From an uncultured Granulosicoccaceae bacterium (GTDB taxonomy: Bacteria; Pseudomonadota; Gammaproteobacteria; Granulosicoccales; Granulosicoccaceae), in assembly GCA_938006335.1 (NCBI GenBank), contig CALLMF010000002.1, positions 1-64,000 of the forward strand: 64,000 nucleotides of DNA, read 5' to 3'. Below the pieces are notes generated by a model. The model had not been told where the DNA came from. It was given only the letters and a program-made list of their open reading frames with translations, and ran no database searches. This document shows, one piece after another, positions 13,617 to 20,370 of this stretch. The first letter of the stretch is position 1, and every line of letters begins with the position of its first letter. The translations under genes and the position numbers were made by a program.

Positions 13617-14813
13617 ATGGCGCTTTCCCCATTTGTACTGGCAGCCGCTGTGCTGTCGCTATCCAGTGTTGTGACATCGGTCACAGCTGCCGAACGTAGT
13701 TGGTACGCTGCTGTCGGTGCCGGTGTGTCCAATCTGTCTCCGGATGCGAGTAACGCAACCCTGGAGGTCACGCAAGAGCAGTCTGTGGCTGGCAGTGTCT
13801 GGTTGGGTCGCGATCTGACCACACGATTCAGTGCTGAACTTGGTGTCGCGACTCTTGGCGAAGCCACGTTGACAGGTGAGGAAACCATTTCCTACAACGC
13901 GATTTCCGGTGGTGTCATCGCCTACGTGCTTGGTGACAGACGTGCGATTGACGAGCGGGAGGGCCTGGCGATGTATGTGCGCGGCGGCGTGAGCGTCATG
14001 GACAATGAATCCGAACTCCAGCTGGAACGCGCCGACAACATCGCGTTGTGGGCGGGCGCGGGTGTCGAGTGGCCGTTTTCACGCCATTTTGGTGTGCGGG
14101 CCGAAGTTGCCAGTTATGACGGTGATGCGCAAGCTGCCTACCTTGGCATTGTCGGTCGGTTCCGAGCGTCACGCGCACCTGCGCGCATCGCACGGGCGCC
14201 GCAGCAGGTTCCGCAGCAGGCGAGTACTCCGACACCTGAGCCATCCATTGCTCAGCGACCTCAGATTCAGCGACCGGTGATCGGGCCACGGCCTGACGAT
14301 GCGTCTACGGCTCAGGCTGGGACGTCGCAGTCCGGAGTTCCCGCGATTTCGCGACCGCAGGCCCCCGCAAGTCAAACCCGGTTGCCCGCAAACACGGCGC
14401 CTGAGGCGAGTGCTGAGAGCACCTGCGTTTCACCGGCACCGAACGAGCCGGTCGATAATCGTGGCTGCGCCATATTCAGCGGCGTTGTCGCAGGCGTCGA
14501 TTTTGAAGGCGGTAGTGCACAGTTGACCCGAACCGGTCGAGTACTTCTTGATCGGCTAGCCCAGCAGCTGCTCCGAAGCCCGTCGGTCGTTGTGGAGATC
14601 CAGTCGCACACCGAGCGCATGGCTTCTGCCGAAGCGGCGACGGTACTGTCACGGCAGCGTGCCATCGAGGTGGCGCGGCAGCTGGCGAGTGCTGGCGTTC
14701 CGATCGAGCGTCTGCGAGCTCGAGCCTTCGGGGACACCCGGCCGCGAGCGGATAATGCGACCGCTGGCGGGCGACGGCTGAACAACCGTATTGCCTTGCG
14801 GGTTCTACCGTGA
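13617..14813 (+). CDS. OmpA family outer-membrane protein, paralog 1
   Basis: The 398-residue protein has a signal peptide (cleavage near SVTA-AERSW), an N-terminal beta-barrel-like domain (residues about 27-185), a Pro/Gln/Ala-rich linker and a C-terminal OmpA-like domain (about 285-398). The linker is typical of proteins that span to the peptidoglycan. The OmpA-like domain is unusual: the canonical HTDN loop reads HTERM, and the closing NRRVE reads NNRIA, so the Asp that normally contacts the peptidoglycan peptide is replaced, while the LSxxRA Arg remains. The gene heads a row of three paralogs. Confidence 0.87.
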   Translation: MALSPFVLAAAVLSLSSVVTSVTAAERSWYAAVGAGVSNLSPDASNATLEVTQEQSVAGSVWLGRDLTTRFSAELGVATLGEATLTGEETISYNAISGGVIAYVLGDRRAIDEREGLAMYVRGGVSVMDNESELQLERADNIALWAGAGVEWPFSRHFGVRAEVASYDGDAQAAYLGIVGRFRASRAPARIARAPQQVPQQASTPTPEPSIAQRPQIQRPVIGPRPDDASTAQAGTSQSGVPAISRPQAPASQTRLPANTAPEASAESTCVSPAPNEPVDNRGCAIFSGVVAGVDFEGGSAQLTRTGRVLLDRLAQQLLRSPSVVVEIQSHTERMASAEAATVLSRQRAIEVARQLASAGVPIERLRARAFGDTRPRADNATAGGRRLNNRIALRVLP

Positions 14814-14950
14814 TGCAAAAGCGTGGAAAACGTTCAGGAACGCTTATTGCTTGGCAGAGGTGTCACTCGACACGGCAACGCCAACGAGCTGCTCTGATGC
14901 AAGCGGACTTTACATCTTCAAAAATCGATGGGTCGACCTCTGGCCTGCCG

Positions 14951-16900
14951 ATGATCACGGCGCGTCGCACTGTCCGCCTGTTCATCATGCGAGTCGGCAC
15001 GGTGGCCGTCGGGCTTGCTCTGGCCAGTTGCTCGGGTGGCTCGCTGAACGAACATTTGTCAACCCTCAAGGTACCGGGTAACGACCCGTCGTTTCGTACA
15101 CGCGTGTATGGCGGTGCGGCCGTGGGTAGCTCGAATCTCAAGCCCGATACCAGCGAGACCGTGTTTACGATCGAGGATGAGAGCGACAGCGCATCGTCCT
15201 TGCGAATTGGCGTGGACGTACACAACCTGTTCGCTTTCGAACTGGAAAGCGCAGTGCTCGGAGCTGCAAAGCTCCGTGAAGCAAATACGGACGTCTCTTA
15301 TTCTGCCGTTTCTCTGAACGCGCTCGTCTACGGACTCAACGGAGTTCAGATGCGTTCGCGGCGTGAGGGATGGAGTGCCTATGGGCGGTTCGGCTTTGCG
15401 CAGATTTCAAAGTCGTCGCAAGTATTGACTCTGGATCAAGGTGGTACATCGCCGGTCATGGGTGTCGGTGTGGAATACGGATTCGGTGGCGGACTTGGCG
15501 TACGTGGTGAATTCACACGTTACTCAGAGGAAGCCCAGCAGTTTGGATTTGGAGCGGTTTATCGCTTTGGTCGATCACCGCGCGAGATTGGGCAGCTGAT
15601 AGCTGATACCGCCCGTCCGGTGCTGGTGACAGAAGAAACTCGCGTTGTCGATAGAAGTCGTAAAGACGCACCGTCAGGCAGGTTTGGCACTGAAGGCGAG
15701 GGTGAGGATGATGTCGCCTACCTGGCTGCAACTGCAGCCCGGGTCGCAGGTGATCGAGCGCAACCGGCAGCGACGACGTATCAGATGTCCGCGGCGAACG
15801 ACCGCGATCGGGACAATGTGCGCGATGACCTGGATCGGTGTCTCGGTACCAACCCGGGCGTCACAGTAGACAAGTACGGATGTGGCCTTTTCGATGTGGT
15901 ACTCGGTGACGTGACCTTCAAGCCGGGCTCTTCGCGATTGAGCGCCCGCGCGCGCGGTGCGCTTGATCTTGTGGCGGCCAAGCTGGTGGCTTTTCCGGAA
16001 GTGCGCGTTGAGGTTCGCGCTCACACCGATTCGCAAGGTGTGGCGGATGCCAATCTTGCATTGTCGGCTCGGCGGGCAGAGGAAGTTGTCAAGTACTTGC
16101 GCAGCCAGGAGATCGGCGAGCTTCAGTTGATTGGTGCAGGCATGGGAGAAGCCCAGCCGATCGCCAGCAATGACAGCCCAGTGGGTCGAAAGGCGAACCG
16201 ACGAGTCGAGCTCGTCACACTCGCAAGCATTGATCAAGGCGTGCTCGATGGCACGCGTACGCTGAGTCGCGTGTGGCGCTACCCGGTCGTTCGTGAAGCG
16301 GAGGATGTCTTGCGTGAAATCGAGGACGGCGTACTCGATGTCGTGCCCGACACCACGACACCGCGAATGTCCAGAGCGCACGTCGCCGACCTGCCGGTCG
16401 AGGTTGCTGTCGCACCGAATACCGTTGCACCTTCGGCAGAACAGGATGATGAGCCCGTCATGGGAGCTGCCGTGGCCTCAGCCGCCAGGACTGGTCTGCC
16501 CCCTCTGGAAGGGCTCAAGCCAGCGGCTCTACCGGCACCTGCCTACGTATCAGGTTTTGACATGAGCGGCGTCGTCGATGGGCTCGGTTTTGTGCAAGGC
16601 TCGGATCAGATGACCGATACCGGCCCTGAGGCCATTGATCGCATTCGCGTGGCGATGGAGCAGAATCCGTCGGCGCGCATCATGGTCATCGCGCACACCG
16701 ACAATGTCGGTGACAGCGACGACAACCAGTTGCTGTCACAGCAGAGGGCAAAACGTGTTGTCGACGCGCTCGTGGACGCGGGTGTGGATCGCTACCGTCT
16801 TGAGCCTGAGGGCTATGGCGAGACCCTTCCGTTGGTGCAGAACGTGACCGATGCCGATCGGGCGCGTAACCGCCGGGTCGAAATCCGTCTGATGCGCTGA
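14951..16900 (+). CDS. OmpA family lipoprotein with two OmpA-like domains, paralog 2
   Basis: I choose ATG 14951, which gives a signal peptide of 26 residues ending in a lipobox (LALASC); the frame is open back to 14810 but those residues look non-coding. The 649-residue product has a barrel-like domain, a short thrombospondin-type-3-like calcium motif (DRDRDNVRDDLDRC) and two OmpA-like domains. The first has HTDSQG, LSARRA and NRRVE; the second has HTDNVG, LSQQRA and NRRVE. Both keep the residues expected for peptidoglycan binding. Two such domains in one chain could bridge two glycan strands. It lies between two OmpA-like paralogs. Confidence 0.85.
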   Translation: MITARRTVRLFIMRVGTVAVGLALASCSGGSLNEHLSTLKVPGNDPSFRTRVYGGAAVGSSNLKPDTSETVFTIEDESDSASSLRIGVDVHNLFAFELESAVLGAAKLREANTDVSYSAVSLNALVYGLNGVQMRSRREGWSAYGRFGFAQISKSSQVLTLDQGGTSPVMGVGVEYGFGGGLGVRGEFTRYSEEAQQFGFGAVYRFGRSPREIGQLIADTARPVLVTEETRVVDRSRKDAPSGRFGTEGEGEDDVAYLAATAARVAGDRAQPAATTYQMSAANDRDRDNVRDDLDRCLGTNPGVTVDKYGCGLFDVVLGDVTFKPGSSRLSARARGALDLVAAKLVAFPEVRVEVRAHTDSQGVADANLALSARRAEEVVKYLRSQEIGELQLIGAGMGEAQPIASNDSPVGRKANRRVELVTLASIDQGVLDGTRTLSRVWRYPVVREAEDVLREIEDGVLDVVPDTTTPRMSRAHVADLPVEVAVAPNTVAPSAEQDDEPVMGAAVASAARTGLPPLEGLKPAALPAPAYVSGFDMSGVVDGLGFVQGSDQMTDTGPEAIDRIRVAMEQNPSARIMVIAHTDNVGDSDDNQLLSQQRAKRVVDALVDAGVDRYRLEPEGYGETLPLVQNVTDADRARNRRVEIRLMR

Positions 16901-17033: not shown

Positions 17034-18167
17034 GTGACGAACTTGCACAAAAGCACATTTATCGCTGGGGTGTGTGCCACCACGTTAGCGCTCAGCGCCT
17101 GCGGGGCGCTCGACTCGCCACGTCGTGACCGCGATCGCGACTTCGACGGCCGCTTCTATGTCGGCGGTGGCGTCTTGTTGAGCCAGCTCGAGCCCGACAC
17201 CGATGAAGTCGACGGCGTGTCGGTCAATGAGACCGAGAGCGCCGGCGGAAGCCTTGCAGTCGGTTACGATTTGTCCAGCCGATTCTCGGTAGAGGGTCAT
17301 TACGCTGCCCTTGGGCAGGCTGGCCTGGCCGTTGACGGTGCCGCTGACGAGGATGTCGACTACCAGGTGTTTGGCCTTAGCGGGCTCATCTACGGCCTCA
17401 ACGACCGTGAAGACAGGGCTCGTCGCGAAGGCTTTTCGCTGTTCGGTCGTCTTGGGGTAGGCGGCATGCAAAACGAGTCGGACATCGCCTACGAGCGCGT
17501 CAACGACGTTCATCTCGTGGCGGGTATCGGTGCGGAGTACGGGTTTCGCAATGGCCTCGCCCTGCGCGGCGAGCTCGTTGGACACGACACCGATGCCCGC
17601 TACGGGCAGCTCGGACTCGTCTACCGCTTTGGTGACGTCGACCGACGACGCGCTCGGCGGCCTGCTGAGCCGGCGAGCGACGGCACGCAGATTACTCCGC
17701 TCCCAGTGCCGGCTGATGAGCCGGTGCGCACCGACCTGGATAGCGATCAGGACGGCGTCGAGGATCTCAACGACCAGTGCCTGGATACCGCATTTGGCAG
17801 CCCGGTAGATGCATCCGGCTGCGACATTTTTGGCGGTGTCATCGAGGGGGTCAAGTTCGAGTCAGGTAGCGATACCTTGACCGCCGGTGCCCAGCTTGAG
17901 CTGGACCAGGTGGCGCAGACCCTCAGCGAGTACCAGGACCTGGATATCAACATCGATGCTCACACCGACAATACCGGTAGCGCCGAGTCCAACCTCCAGC
18001 TGTCACGCCGCCGGGCTGTTTCGGTTGCGCGATACCTGGTCGGGCAAGGCGTTGCCGGTGACCGCCTGAAGCCGCGAGCATTTGGCGAGTCCCAGCCGCG
18101 CACCACCAACGCAAGTGCCGAAGGTCGTGCAGCCAACCGGCGGGTTGAGTTCACCATCGCGCAGTAA
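17034..18167 (+). CDS. OmpA family lipoprotein, paralog 3
   Basis: Starting at a GTG, this 377-residue protein has a lipoprotein signal (LALSAC), an N-terminal barrel-like domain paralogous to those of the two preceding genes (shared pattern G-S-L-PD, then YGLNDREDRARREGFSLFGR), a TSP3-like calcium motif (DLDSDQDGVEDLNDQC) and a canonical OmpA-like domain with HTDNTGS, LSRRRA and NRRVEF. It should anchor the outer membrane to peptidoglycan. A strong hairpin terminator follows the stop, so the three-gene cluster ends here. Confidence 0.88.
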   Translation: MTNLHKSTFIAGVCATTLALSACGALDSPRRDRDRDFDGRFYVGGGVLLSQLEPDTDEVDGVSVNETESAGGSLAVGYDLSSRFSVEGHYAALGQAGLAVDGAADEDVDYQVFGLSGLIYGLNDREDRARREGFSLFGRLGVGGMQNESDIAYERVNDVHLVAGIGAEYGFRNGLALRGELVGHDTDARYGQLGLVYRFGDVDRRRARRPAEPASDGTQITPLPVPADEPVRTDLDSDQDGVEDLNDQCLDTAFGSPVDASGCDIFGGVIEGVKFESGSDTLTAGAQLELDQVAQTLSEYQDLDINIDAHTDNTGSAESNLQLSRRRAVSVARYLVGQGVAGDRLKPRAFGESQPRTTNASAEGRAANRRVEFTIAQ

Positions 18168-18215: not shown

Positions 18216-18255
18216 CCGGTCTGCGTCCACGCGCAGACCGGCTGTTTGTACCTTT
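18216..18255 (+). terminator. Hairpin terminator after the OmpA cluster
   Basis: CCGGTCTGCG (18216-18225) pairs perfectly with CGCAGACCGG (18232-18241) around a six-base loop, followed by a T-rich stretch. This fits an intrinsic terminator for the paralog cluster. Confidence 0.75.
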
Positions 18256-18396
18256 TGTTACCCAAATGCGCCGTTTAGCGACCCTTGTCGCGGAAATGTG
18301 GCCCGTATCCGGTGATCAGGTCACCGACATGAAATTGGCGCTTTGGTACCATCATTAATAGTGCGCGCAATCGTCGCGCTTGGCGGATCTCTACCC

Positions 18397-20370
18397 ATGT
18401 TCACACGCACTCAGATTGCGTCACTCGTTACTGCGGCATCGCGCCCGTTGATTGTCTGCACCAGCGTCTGTTTTGCTGCGGGCGTGCAGGCTGCCGACAC
18501 GGGAGATGCACCGGATTCCTACGGCCTTGCGACGCACGAGGTCGTCAGTGGGGCCCCGTTCCTGGGTGAGGCGCCGCCCGAGGACAACGATGCGGTAGCC
18601 AGCGTCGGCGCTGATGGCGACGATATTGCCAATGGCGACGATGAGGATGGCGTATTTGCTTTCCCCACCCTCGTCGAATTCGGCAAGGCCTACACCACCA
18701 ACGTGTTTGCGACCAACCCCGGTCCTGAAGACGCCACGCTCGTCGGTTGGGTCGACTTTGACGGAGACGGTGTTTTCAGCGCCGATGAAGCGGCGACAGC
18801 GATCGTGCCGCCCGGTACGGTCAACGAGAAGTTCAAGCTCACCTGGAACGAGCTGAGCGGTATTACCTCCGACTTCGTCGGTACCAGCTACGCGCGTTTT
18901 CGAATCACGAGCGACCCGATCGGCGTGGGCGAAGCCGTCGGCTCCAAAAGCAACGGCGAAGTGGAGGACTACACCCTCGAGATCCAGGCCGACAACGATG
19001 GTGATGAAATGCCCGACGTCGACGATCTTGACGACGACAACGACGGCATCCCGGACAGCGTTGAAGTCATCGGTACCGACACTGATGGCGATGGCGTATC
19101 CAACCATTTTGACCGCGATTCCGACGACGATGGCATCCCGGATTTCGTGGAAGCGGGCCCGGTAGCAGCCAACCCGACAGACACCGATGGTGACGGTGCG
19201 CCCGACTACGTGGATCTTGATTCAAACAATGACGGGGTCCTCGACAGTGAACCGGTCGCCGATGACGTTGATGGCGATGGCCTGACCTCGGATCTTGAAG
19301 GTACCGGCGACCGTGACGGAGACGGCATTCTCAACGTCGACGATCTCGATTCCGATAATGACAGCATCCCCGATGCCGTCGAGGCCGGTAACACCGGTTC
19401 CTCCATCGACACTGACGGTGACCTGATTCCTGACTTCCTGGACCTGGACTCCGACAACGACGGCATTCCCGATCTGTACGAGGGAAGCTCAGGGGAAATC
19501 AACACACTCGAGCTCGACGCTGACGGCGACGGTCAGATAGATGCCGGCGGTAACTTCGGTGTCAATGGCCTGCTCGATATCGTGGAAACCACGCCCGACT
19601 CAGGCGTGCCTGTGTATGCGGTGCCCGACACCGACGGCGACGGGGTCCGTGACTTCCAGGACCTTGACAGCGATAACGACGGTTTCAACGACGTGACCGA
19701 AGCGGGTGGCAGCGACGCGGACGCCAATGGGCGTGTCGACGCACTCGTCGATGCTGACGACGACGGTCTGCCCGACACCATTGATGTCGACAGCACCGGT
19801 GGCGTCGATGCAGACGGAGACAACATCGACGATGCATTCGATGCGGATTACGCCTCTGGCGAAGATCTCGACAACGACGGTATTGTCGATTCCGTAGACA
19901 TCGACCTCAACAATGACGGCATCGTCGACGGCAGCAACCTGTTTGCTGACGGCAACATACCCGACGCTGACGACGATGGCCGTCCTGATTTTCAGGACAC
20001 GGACAACTCACCACTTGCGCCGGTTGAGCCAGTTGATCCAGCTGAGCCAGCTGAGCCAGCTGAGCCAGCTGAGCCAGTTGAGCCAGTTGAGCCAGTTGAT
20101 CCAGTTGATCCAGTTGATCCAGTTGATCCGGAAGAGACAACGGATCCCGAGCCCGGCACTGATGTCGGCGCCAACGCGGACTCCGACCCGATCATCCAGA
20201 CGGGCCTCAACGGAGCGCCTGGATGCAGCATTCACTCTGCTGGCATCGATGCGCAGCGCGACCCGGTGTTCTTCCTTGCGGTACTCGCGGCTGTAGGTGC
20301 GCTGTTTGGGCGACGTAAAAGACGGATGCTTACGCGCATTCCGTTGGGTCGTACACAAAACATCAAATAG
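18397..20370 (+). CDS. GEVED/TSP3-repeat surface protein with C-terminal sorting-type tail
   Basis: ATG 18397 (MFTRTQIASL) is chosen; the frame extends to a TTG at 18343 but the signal peptide fits the ATG. The order is signal peptide (cleavage near GVQA), a GEVED-type domain that ends GEVEDYTLEI, then more than a dozen calcium-binding repeats of the DxDxDGxxD kind, and a Pro/Glu/Asp tract made of twelve three-residue units (VEP, AEP, VDP). The C-terminus has GCSI, a hydrophobic stretch (FFLAVLAAVGALFG) and RRKRR, the Cys-hydrophobic-basic order of JDVT/MYXO-CTERM sorting tails. The protein is probably surface-exposed and calcium-stabilised. The nearby OmpA-like genes carry shorter copies of the same calcium motif. 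Confidence 0.82.
   Translation: MFTRTQIASLVTAASRPLIVCTSVCFAAGVQAADTGDAPDSYGLATHEVVSGAPFLGEAPPEDNDAVASVGADGDDIANGDDEDGVFAFPTLVEFGKAYTTNVFATNPGPEDATLVGWVDFDGDGVFSADEAATAIVPPGTVNEKFKLTWNELSGITSDFVGTSYARFRITSDPIGVGEAVGSKSNGEVEDYTLEIQADNDGDEMPDVDDLDDDNDGIPDSVEVIGTDTDGDGVSNHFDRDSDDDGIPDFVEAGPVAANPTDTDGDGAPDYVDLDSNNDGVLDSEPVADDVDGDGLTSDLEGTGDRDGDGILNVDDLDSDNDSIPDAVEAGNTGSSIDTDGDLIPDFLDLDSDNDGIPDLYEGSSGEINTLELDADGDGQIDAGGNFGVNGLLDIVETTPDSGVPVYAVPDTDGDGVRDFQDLDSDNDGFNDVTEAGGSDADANGRVDALVDADDDGLPDTIDVDSTGGVDADGDNIDDAFDADYASGEDLDNDGIVDSVDIDLNNDGIVDGSNLFADGNIPDADDDGRPDFQDTDNSPLAPVEPVDPAEPAEPAEPAEPVEPVEPVDPVDPVDPVDPEETTDPEPGTDVGANADSDPIIQTGLNGAPGCSIHSAGIDAQRDPVFFLAVLAAVGALFGRRKRRMLTRIPLGRTQNIK
20023..20130 (+). 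repeat. 9-bp tandem repeat, 12 units, Pro-rich stalk
   Basis: Twelve 9-base units of the form GTTGAGCCA / GCTGAGCCA / GTTGATCCA encode the alternating Val/Ala-Glu/Asp-Pro stalk of the surface protein. Neighbouring units of the same kind are clustered, which suggests growth by local duplication. Unit number could vary between strains. Confidence 0.85.

Follow-up and report, generated by a model that had tools for sequence, protein, structure and literature searches.

The gene at positions 18397 to 20370 (+ strand) of the window, by which we mean the whole 64,000-nucleotide stretch analysed here, encodes a 657-aa protein with a Cys-type sorting tail and is part of a sorting system for Cys tails that resembles JDVT-CTERM/MrtJ in how it works, although the tail itself fails the cut-off of that model. 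In our main reading, to which we give a probability of roughly 0.6, the product would be a fibrillar surface adhesin whose JDVT-like tail is cut by MrtJ, which is exported by a type II secretion system (T2SS), and which has a TraB-like barrel/OmpA partner. This reading draws on the domains of the protein, on the mrtJ and T2SS genes of the same genome, on a conserved locus, and on the links of tail proteins with barrel/OmpA proteins as neighbours, overlapping genes, and fusions. By analogy with known systems, the tail helix would hold the adhesin in the inner membrane after Sec export, Cys610 would be lipidated, MrtJ would cut distal to it, and the T2SS would carry the lipid-anchored adhesin to the surface; there it would work with a barrel+OmpA protein of the kind encoded upstream, most likely OmpA3, which would link it to the wall in the manner of TraB with TraA.

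The translation begins with ATG (an in-frame TTG at 18343 is a possible alternative start), contains no internal stop, and bears out the architecture given in a preliminary description of this DNA: a GEVED domain, DxDxDGxxD repeats, a Pro-rich stalk, and a tail of GCSI, hydrophobic span, and RRKRR. All of the following features lie on the + strand. A putative signal peptide, recognized by eye and not by a prediction program, spans residues 1 to 32 (AQA/AD; 18397 to 18492). The GEVED domain (PF20009; residues 115 to 194; 18739 to 18978) passes its gathering score of 24.4 with 37.7 bits; a search for solved relatives of the N-terminal domain returned weak matches only, with E values of 0.17 or worse. 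Ten calcium-type DxDxDGxxD repeats follow at residues 212 to 531 (19030 to 19989), and 5,000 shuffles of the segment from residue 196 to 540 gave 0.30 on average and never more than 5. The Pro-rich stalk (residues 543 to 578; 20023 to 20130) consists of twelve [VA][ED]P units, the same number as had been counted before. The sorting tail, delimited from profile matches and the sequence, covers residues 602 to 643 (20200 to 20325; TGLNGAPGCSIHSAGIDAQRDPVFFLAVLAAVGALFGRRKRR) and comprises a TGL motif, Cys610, the hydrophobic span, and RRKRR; the Cys610 codon (20224 to 20226) would specify the lipid-bearing residue, by analogy with MYXO-CTERM as presented in the available text of PMC11980579. GEVED was defined in CshA-type fibrillar adhesins, where, in the part of PMC10952558 covered, it stands ahead of stalk domains; these adhesins share with the window protein the order of GEVED, long stalk, and C-terminal sorting signal, but they carry the LPXTG anchor of Gram-positives, and a Pfam profile search found no match to their NR2 domain in the window protein. 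In our main reading, the repeats would form a calcium-stiffened stalk and the Pro-rich stretch a spacer ahead of the JDVT-like tail; the protein may serve as an adhesin, a kin receptor, or a wall anchor.

With its Cys motif, hydrophobic span, and C-terminal basic cluster, the window tail has the layout of the JDVT type. The JDVT-CTERM model (NF033191) gives it 20.9 bits (E 2.4e-4), and 24.2 bits (E 1.6e-4) in a six-frame search of the whole genome; the curated cut-off is 27, and this shortfall counts against the main reading. The same six-frame search of 14 control genomes produced a match at E <= 10 in 12 of them and none over the cut-off. A model built from 28 tails of other genomes scores the window tail at 19.4 bits, against 3.2 for the best shuffled tail (2,000 shuffled, 132 scored); because these tails were gathered with a pattern that requires Cys, the model is uninformative on the invariance of that residue. 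The window tail also has the top score with model A2, which includes it, so that this rank arises by construction. The MYXO-CTERM model (TIGR03901) gives 11.7 bits and its cut-off of 20 is not reached; as for GlyGly-CTERM, the window tail holds no Gly-rich Cys-free motif, and that model is absent from the six matches of the NCBIfam search.

The preliminary description had inferred that a matching sorting protease is encoded elsewhere in the genome, and had proposed a search for further proteins with the same tail and for a rhombosortase-type or CPBP-type protease, the lack of both a second tail and a protease being what would speak against it. In the genome to which the window belongs (3.8 Mb, 66 contigs, 93.75% complete), a single CPBP protein passes the Pfam cut-off, and by NCBIfam it is MrtJ (NF033192; 106.2 bits, cut-off 75); EExxxR, H, and HxxxN, the glutamic-protease residues of CPBP proteins, are invariant in an alignment of MrtJ from nine relatives. 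The window gene lies on contig C2 and mrtJ on contig C31, so the two do not adjoin. A rhombosortase is present as well (151.9 bits, cut-off 84), and gspG, gspK, and gspL of the T2SS exceed their cut-offs; on contig C1 (L019, 2529 to 9107), the rhombosortase gene is divergent from these three, which adjoin it. Besides the window tail, the genome holds four candidate Cys tails: C3:14329, over the JDVT cut-off with 29.3 bits; C8:89770 (KTGLAGHGGCSI), with 39.6 bits from the clade model and not listed with the JDVT model; C65:4811, with 16.5 bits from the JDVT and 30.4 from the clade model; and the marginal C32:79441, with 16.3 and 16.7 bits, respectively. With second tails and both kinds of protease in place, the earlier inference stands. 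Four weak JDVT matches were set aside: C10:98606, whose 121-aa frame is not tail-like; C2:271822, which resembles FimV; and C18 and C2:186426, where the tail pattern showed no tail in a long frame.

Across the order, sampled as 48 genomes of one family and six genera, MrtJ exceeds its cut-off in 44 genomes, the four misses being 74 to 88% complete, and rhombosortase is found in 47. JDVT matches at E 0.1 or better occur in 48/48 genomes, 43 of them over the cut-off. Since both proteases are near universal, assignment by co-occurrence within the order was dropped; with rhombosortase in 47/48 genomes, such co-occurrence does not single out MrtJ, and this counts against the main reading. One might suppose, then, that rhombosortase cuts the window tail, as it does GlyGly-CTERM tails, and that MrtJ serves other proteins, all the more so as rhombosortase exceeds its cut-off in the window's own genome and the related fused proteins of the class, described below, mostly have Cys-free tails where MrtJ is absent. 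We consider this quite unlikely: the window tail reads GCSI and has no GlyGly motif, TGLxG...C tail proteins stand in one row with mrtJ at eight loci not named Granulosicoccaceae, and one genome (G030, 94% complete) carries a window-type gene and MrtJ with no rhombosortase match. The GlyGly-CTERM/rhombosortase system resembles the present one in its tripartite tail, in the rhombosortase and T2SS genes, and in one Gly-type tail recognized by eye in the window's own genome (C5, L009), but the window tail is Cys-type and MrtJ belongs to another protease class. The cleavage and anchoring that our main reading ascribes to the window tail would follow the literature on MYXO-CTERM and GlyGly-CTERM; for the former, the available text of PMC11980579 describes export, lipidation of Cys (a proposal there too), cleavage by a CPBP protease distal to Cys, and transfer to the surface by the T2SS.

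At 27/30 loci of the order, mrtJ is preceded on its own strand, at a distance of at most 450 bases, by an OmpA-like gene (two of the other three have no such gene and one is at a contig end), and 21 of these 27 genes overlap the mrtJ open frame or end at most 60 bases from it. Six of the 27 belong to genus g5, where what precedes mrtJ is a more weakly matching OmpA relative: one of the two genes tested has an OmpA domain without a barrel match (L032) and the other is under the cut-off (L041). The best 80 named loci of the MrtJ scan, the nearest of which are from Granulosicoccus and Granulosicoccaceae, overlap in part with the order loci because they come from the same genomes; 40 have the upstream OmpA-like gene, 38 do not, and 2 are contig ends. 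The weaker g5 relative and the 38 loci without the gene count against the main reading, as does the position of mrtJ in the window's own genome, beside an OmpA gene and not a tail gene. The eight rows of tail gene, barrel gene, and mrtJ outside the named family comprise five with barrel+OmpA (L158, L161, L169, L170, and L179) and three with barrel alone (L190, L191, and L195); the barrel, rather than the OmpA domain, therefore seems to be the constant part. The three latter loci are from "Candidatus Thiodiazotropha," and the barrel-only gene between tail gene and mrtJ is 189 aa long there; at 3,174 bases each, L170 and G358:C54 probably represent a single record.

At five further loci (L146, L163, L192, L198, and L206), a Cys-tail gene without calcium repeats directly precedes mrtJ, an arrangement that fits the two-gene pair as which JDVT-CTERM/MrtJ is described in the covered text of PMC11980579, summarizing Haft 2024. 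The window tail shares with that system the Cys, the hydrophobic span, and the basic end, and MrtJ is over its cut-off in the genome; it differs in falling under the tail cut-off, in an extra TG[LVI]xG before the Cys, and in the calcium repeats, and here there are five candidate tail proteins instead of one, with mrtJ following an OmpA gene instead of a tail gene. Motif and repeats go together: when 30 JDVT loci were compared, one per genome, at least three calcium motifs were present in 22/22 with [TS]G[LVI] before the Cys and in 1/8 without it (Fisher 3.9e-6, kinship ignored). All 7 fusions among the 30 loci fall in the [TS]G[LVI] class, as does the window protein.

Profile searches identified three OmpA genes upstream of the window gene, likewise on the + strand: OmpA1 (13617 to 14813), with a barrel and an OmpA domain; OmpA2 (14810 to 16900), with a barrel and two OmpA domains; and OmpA3 (17034 to 18167), with a lipobox (LSAC, by eye), a barrel (PF13505, 51.3 bits), a TSP3-like linker, and an OmpA domain (PF00691, 77.7 bits), both domains being over their cut-offs. 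Within 13617 to 16900, the listed start of OmpA2 overlaps the end of OmpA1 by 4 bases. OmpA3 thus has the TraB-like order of barrel, TSP3-like linker, and OmpA, the linker being recognized by eye only. Identity of the OmpA genes with TraB (NF033763) was rejected, since OmpA3 scores 93.6 bits against a cut-off of 700 and matches in the C-terminal part only. The OmpA-like protein PdsO (TIGR03789), which we take to be a member of a sortase system, offers by its name a parallel of a sorting enzyme with an OmpA-like companion, but OmpA3 scores 74.1 bits with the PdsO model, whose cut-off is 152.2. Between OmpA3 and the tail gene lies a hairpin of 11 pairs (18216 to 18241, + strand), a possible terminator or mRNA structure; the window region has 9 terminator-like sites against 5.6 expected from shuffles. 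Given this hairpin and the roughly 230 bases between the two genes, co-transcription is not clear, which counts against the main reading.

In the covered text of PMC3325183, traA and its barrel-TSP3-OmpA partner traB are encoded next door to each other with a 4-base overlap, and in that of the preprint PMC12045341, TraA and TraB occur 1:1, TraB again being barrel-TSP3-OmpA; in both, a barrel supports the surface protein and grips the wall with its OmpA domain. As far as these sources go, MYXO-CTERM/MrtX and TraA-TraB share with the present system the Cys tail, the CPBP protease, export by the T2SS, and a barrel-TSP3-OmpA partner, although neither the window tail nor OmpA3 reaches the cut-off of the corresponding model.

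To follow the locus in relatives, pckA, the gene 3' of the window gene, was sought in the 48 genomes and found in 44, and up to 14 kb upstream was read, contig permitting. Twenty-five genomes of the window's genus have pckA and 24 could be assessed, G031 being left out because its contig ends at pckA. The gene order is OmpA1-OmpA2-OmpA3-(OmpA4)-tail protein-pckA, some members being absent in individual genomes; at pckA in genera g2, g5, and g6, where some contigs are short, the locus members were not found. A window-type tail gene precedes pckA in 14/24 genomes of the genus, its own included, and in one genome each of two other genera (G002 and G005), and all 16 tails keep TG[LVI]xG...C, the hydrophobic span, and basic residues. 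It is missing in the other 10/24 genomes of the genus, a point against the main reading. A second calcium-repeat tail protein is fused in frame ahead of OmpA3 in 11/24 genomes and encoded by an adjacent gene in 8/24; in the remaining 5/24, the window's own genome included, OmpA3 has no preceding tail protein, which also counts against the main reading. In the adjacent pairs, the overlap at the stop, counted from a Met codon, is 4 bases in five genomes (G020, G021, G043, G044, and G045), 8 bases in G026, and 22 bases in G024 and G025. On the best OmpA3 tree (25 rows, G005 included), the state changes among fused, adjacent, and alone four times, against a minimum of 2 and a shuffled mean of 11; 9/22 inner branches are well supported, and these alone force fewer changes.

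Behind the internal tail, a lipobox is kept in 18/18 fusions of the locus (12 of OmpA3, namely, 11 of the genus plus G005, and 6 of OmpA4), where shuffled hinges would lead one to expect 0.81; the window's OmpA3, which stands alone, likewise has a lipobox. The six OmpA4 fusions include L087, on contig C192 of G015, which we kept although it is very like the G039 locus despite its assignment to another genus and is probably mis-binned. An internal lipobox is useful only if the OmpA half is exported and processed as a lipoprotein, and its retention is easiest to understand if the halves come apart. This bears on the idea that the tail escapes processing and simply anchors the protein, which would stay in the inner membrane. 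Tripartite tails do look like single-pass anchors, but the retained lipobox, the recurrence of Cys with an extended motif in many tails, and the matching protease MrtJ in 28/28 well-completed genomes of the order make it very unlikely. In G005 (L113, 3371 to 9358), the fused tail is without Cys, yet the fusion and the internal lipobox are kept.

The window's own genome contains a fusion of a second kind. On contig C3 (L015, 5585 to 11122), one frame of 1,845 aa comprises a calcium-repeat protein, an internal JDVT tail over the cut-off, a signal-peptide-like helix, a barrel, and OmpA. Six loci carry fusions of this kind (L001, L057, L061, L063, L065, and L071), and in 6/6 the hinge has an AxA stretch and no lipobox; in 3/6 (L061, L063, and L065) there is no Met between tail and barrel, although GTG or TTG could serve as a start. 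The accessible text of PMC11980579 prints one such protein, MXAN_5598 of Myxococcus xanthus, in which an internal tail is followed by barrel and OmpA, and calls internal motifs rare for MYXO-CTERM; it was the only printed fusion of this kind in our literature search, which covered sources other than Haft 2024, the primary MrtJ paper. The window itself has no such fusion, but the C3 protein does match MXAN_5598 in layout, and whereas that is one printed protein, here the fusion is recurrent. The present analysis adds that the fusion recurs in Gammaproteobacteria, with tails of the Cys type and of other types, that at one locus fused and split genes alternate, and that the hinge at this locus keeps a lipobox.

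A model of tail, hinge, barrel, and OmpA was then run over 350 genomes of the class, and among the matches listed, 20 candidate regions were chosen in which the match begins near a tail or sits in a long frame. Four were dropped, one for lack of a visible tail (G358:C238) and three because the barrel is in its own frame (G358:C54, G247:C50, and G148:C105); in the remaining 16 proteins, from 14 genomes, a single frame runs, as judged by eye, through a tail-like helix, basic residues, a second helix, and a barrel. Three of the 14 genomes (G047, G122, and G258) have a Cys-type internal tail, and all three have MrtJ. In the other 11, the internal tail has no Cys motif and is mostly Gly-rich; among these, MrtJ exceeds its cut-off in G099 alone, G178 having a subthreshold match of 56 bits. 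For these 14 genomes the association of Cys tail with MrtJ gives a Fisher value of 0.011, kinship ignored; rhombosortase exceeds its cut-off in all 14. Outside this table stand the window's genus, G007 (L063), with a Cys tail and MrtJ, and G005, with MrtJ and no Cys. On this pattern, the internal tail looks kept in a form open to cutting by a protease of the cell. The fused tails without Cys in G099 and G005, despite MrtJ, speak against tail type following protease and count against the main reading.

The link with OmpA proteins could also be incidental, reflecting abundant envelope genes that cluster, with the fused frames as assembly accidents. OmpA proteins are common, most of the genomes are in many contigs and possibly metagenome bins, the tail and OmpA genes are separate in the window, and the OmpA3 tree, judged by its well-supported branches, requires few changes of state. 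However, relatives show the OmpA3 slot in fused, adjacent, or solitary form, with four changes on the best tree, the three-gene rows recur outside the named family, and a fusion of the C3 kind (L057) occurs in the single-contig genome G020, and we consider an incidental link unlikely. That related genomes again and again pair such tail proteins with an outer-membrane barrel, or fuse the two, suggests an adhesion device made of two parts. As a tentative extension, to which we give a little less than an even chance, adhesin and TraB-like barrel would be made as one polyprotein in many Gammaproteobacteria: the mid-chain tail and the signal peptide or lipobox would form a membrane hairpin excised by the CTERM protease and signal peptidase, leaving a 1:1 pair; tail type would match whichever protease the cell has, Cys for MrtJ and Gly for rhombosortase; TG[LVI]xG, remaining at the terminus of the mature adhesin next to its lipid, would dock the adhesin to the barrel; and the window would hold the split version.

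In the text covered, JDVT-CTERM/MrtJ has so far been a gene pair predicted from sequence. Our data suggest a third component for calcium-repeat substrates, an outer-membrane barrel, usually with an OmpA domain, and this in turn suggests a function, namely, wall-linked adhesion at the surface, comparable to TraAB. The fused forms offer ready-made test constructs, as both halves would be released if the internal tail is cut, and the division between Cys tails and the rest according to protease content yields a prediction of the protease responsible for each kind of tail.

Some further arrangements were observed around the tail, protease, and secretion genes. In g5, a listed JDVT match lies 8.4 to 9.6 kb from rhombosortase in 8/14 genomes, and in two loci that were read (L214 and L215), both in the vicinity of T2SS genes or rhombosortase, at most about 50 bases separate the tail gene from an OmpA gene; in L214 (5743 to 16306), these two genes are a few genes from T2SS genes and rhombosortase, the tail gene lying several genes behind gspI, gspK, and gspL. 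On contig C31 of the window's own genome (L018, 5875 to 8793), a hemB-like gene (by eye), an OmpA-barrel gene, and mrtJ stand in one row, and at L038 and L052 a hemB-like gene (by eye) directly precedes mrtJ. The frame at C8:89770 of the same genome (L210) is 4,169 aa long and ends in a TGLAGHGGCSI tail, making it a very large candidate substrate.
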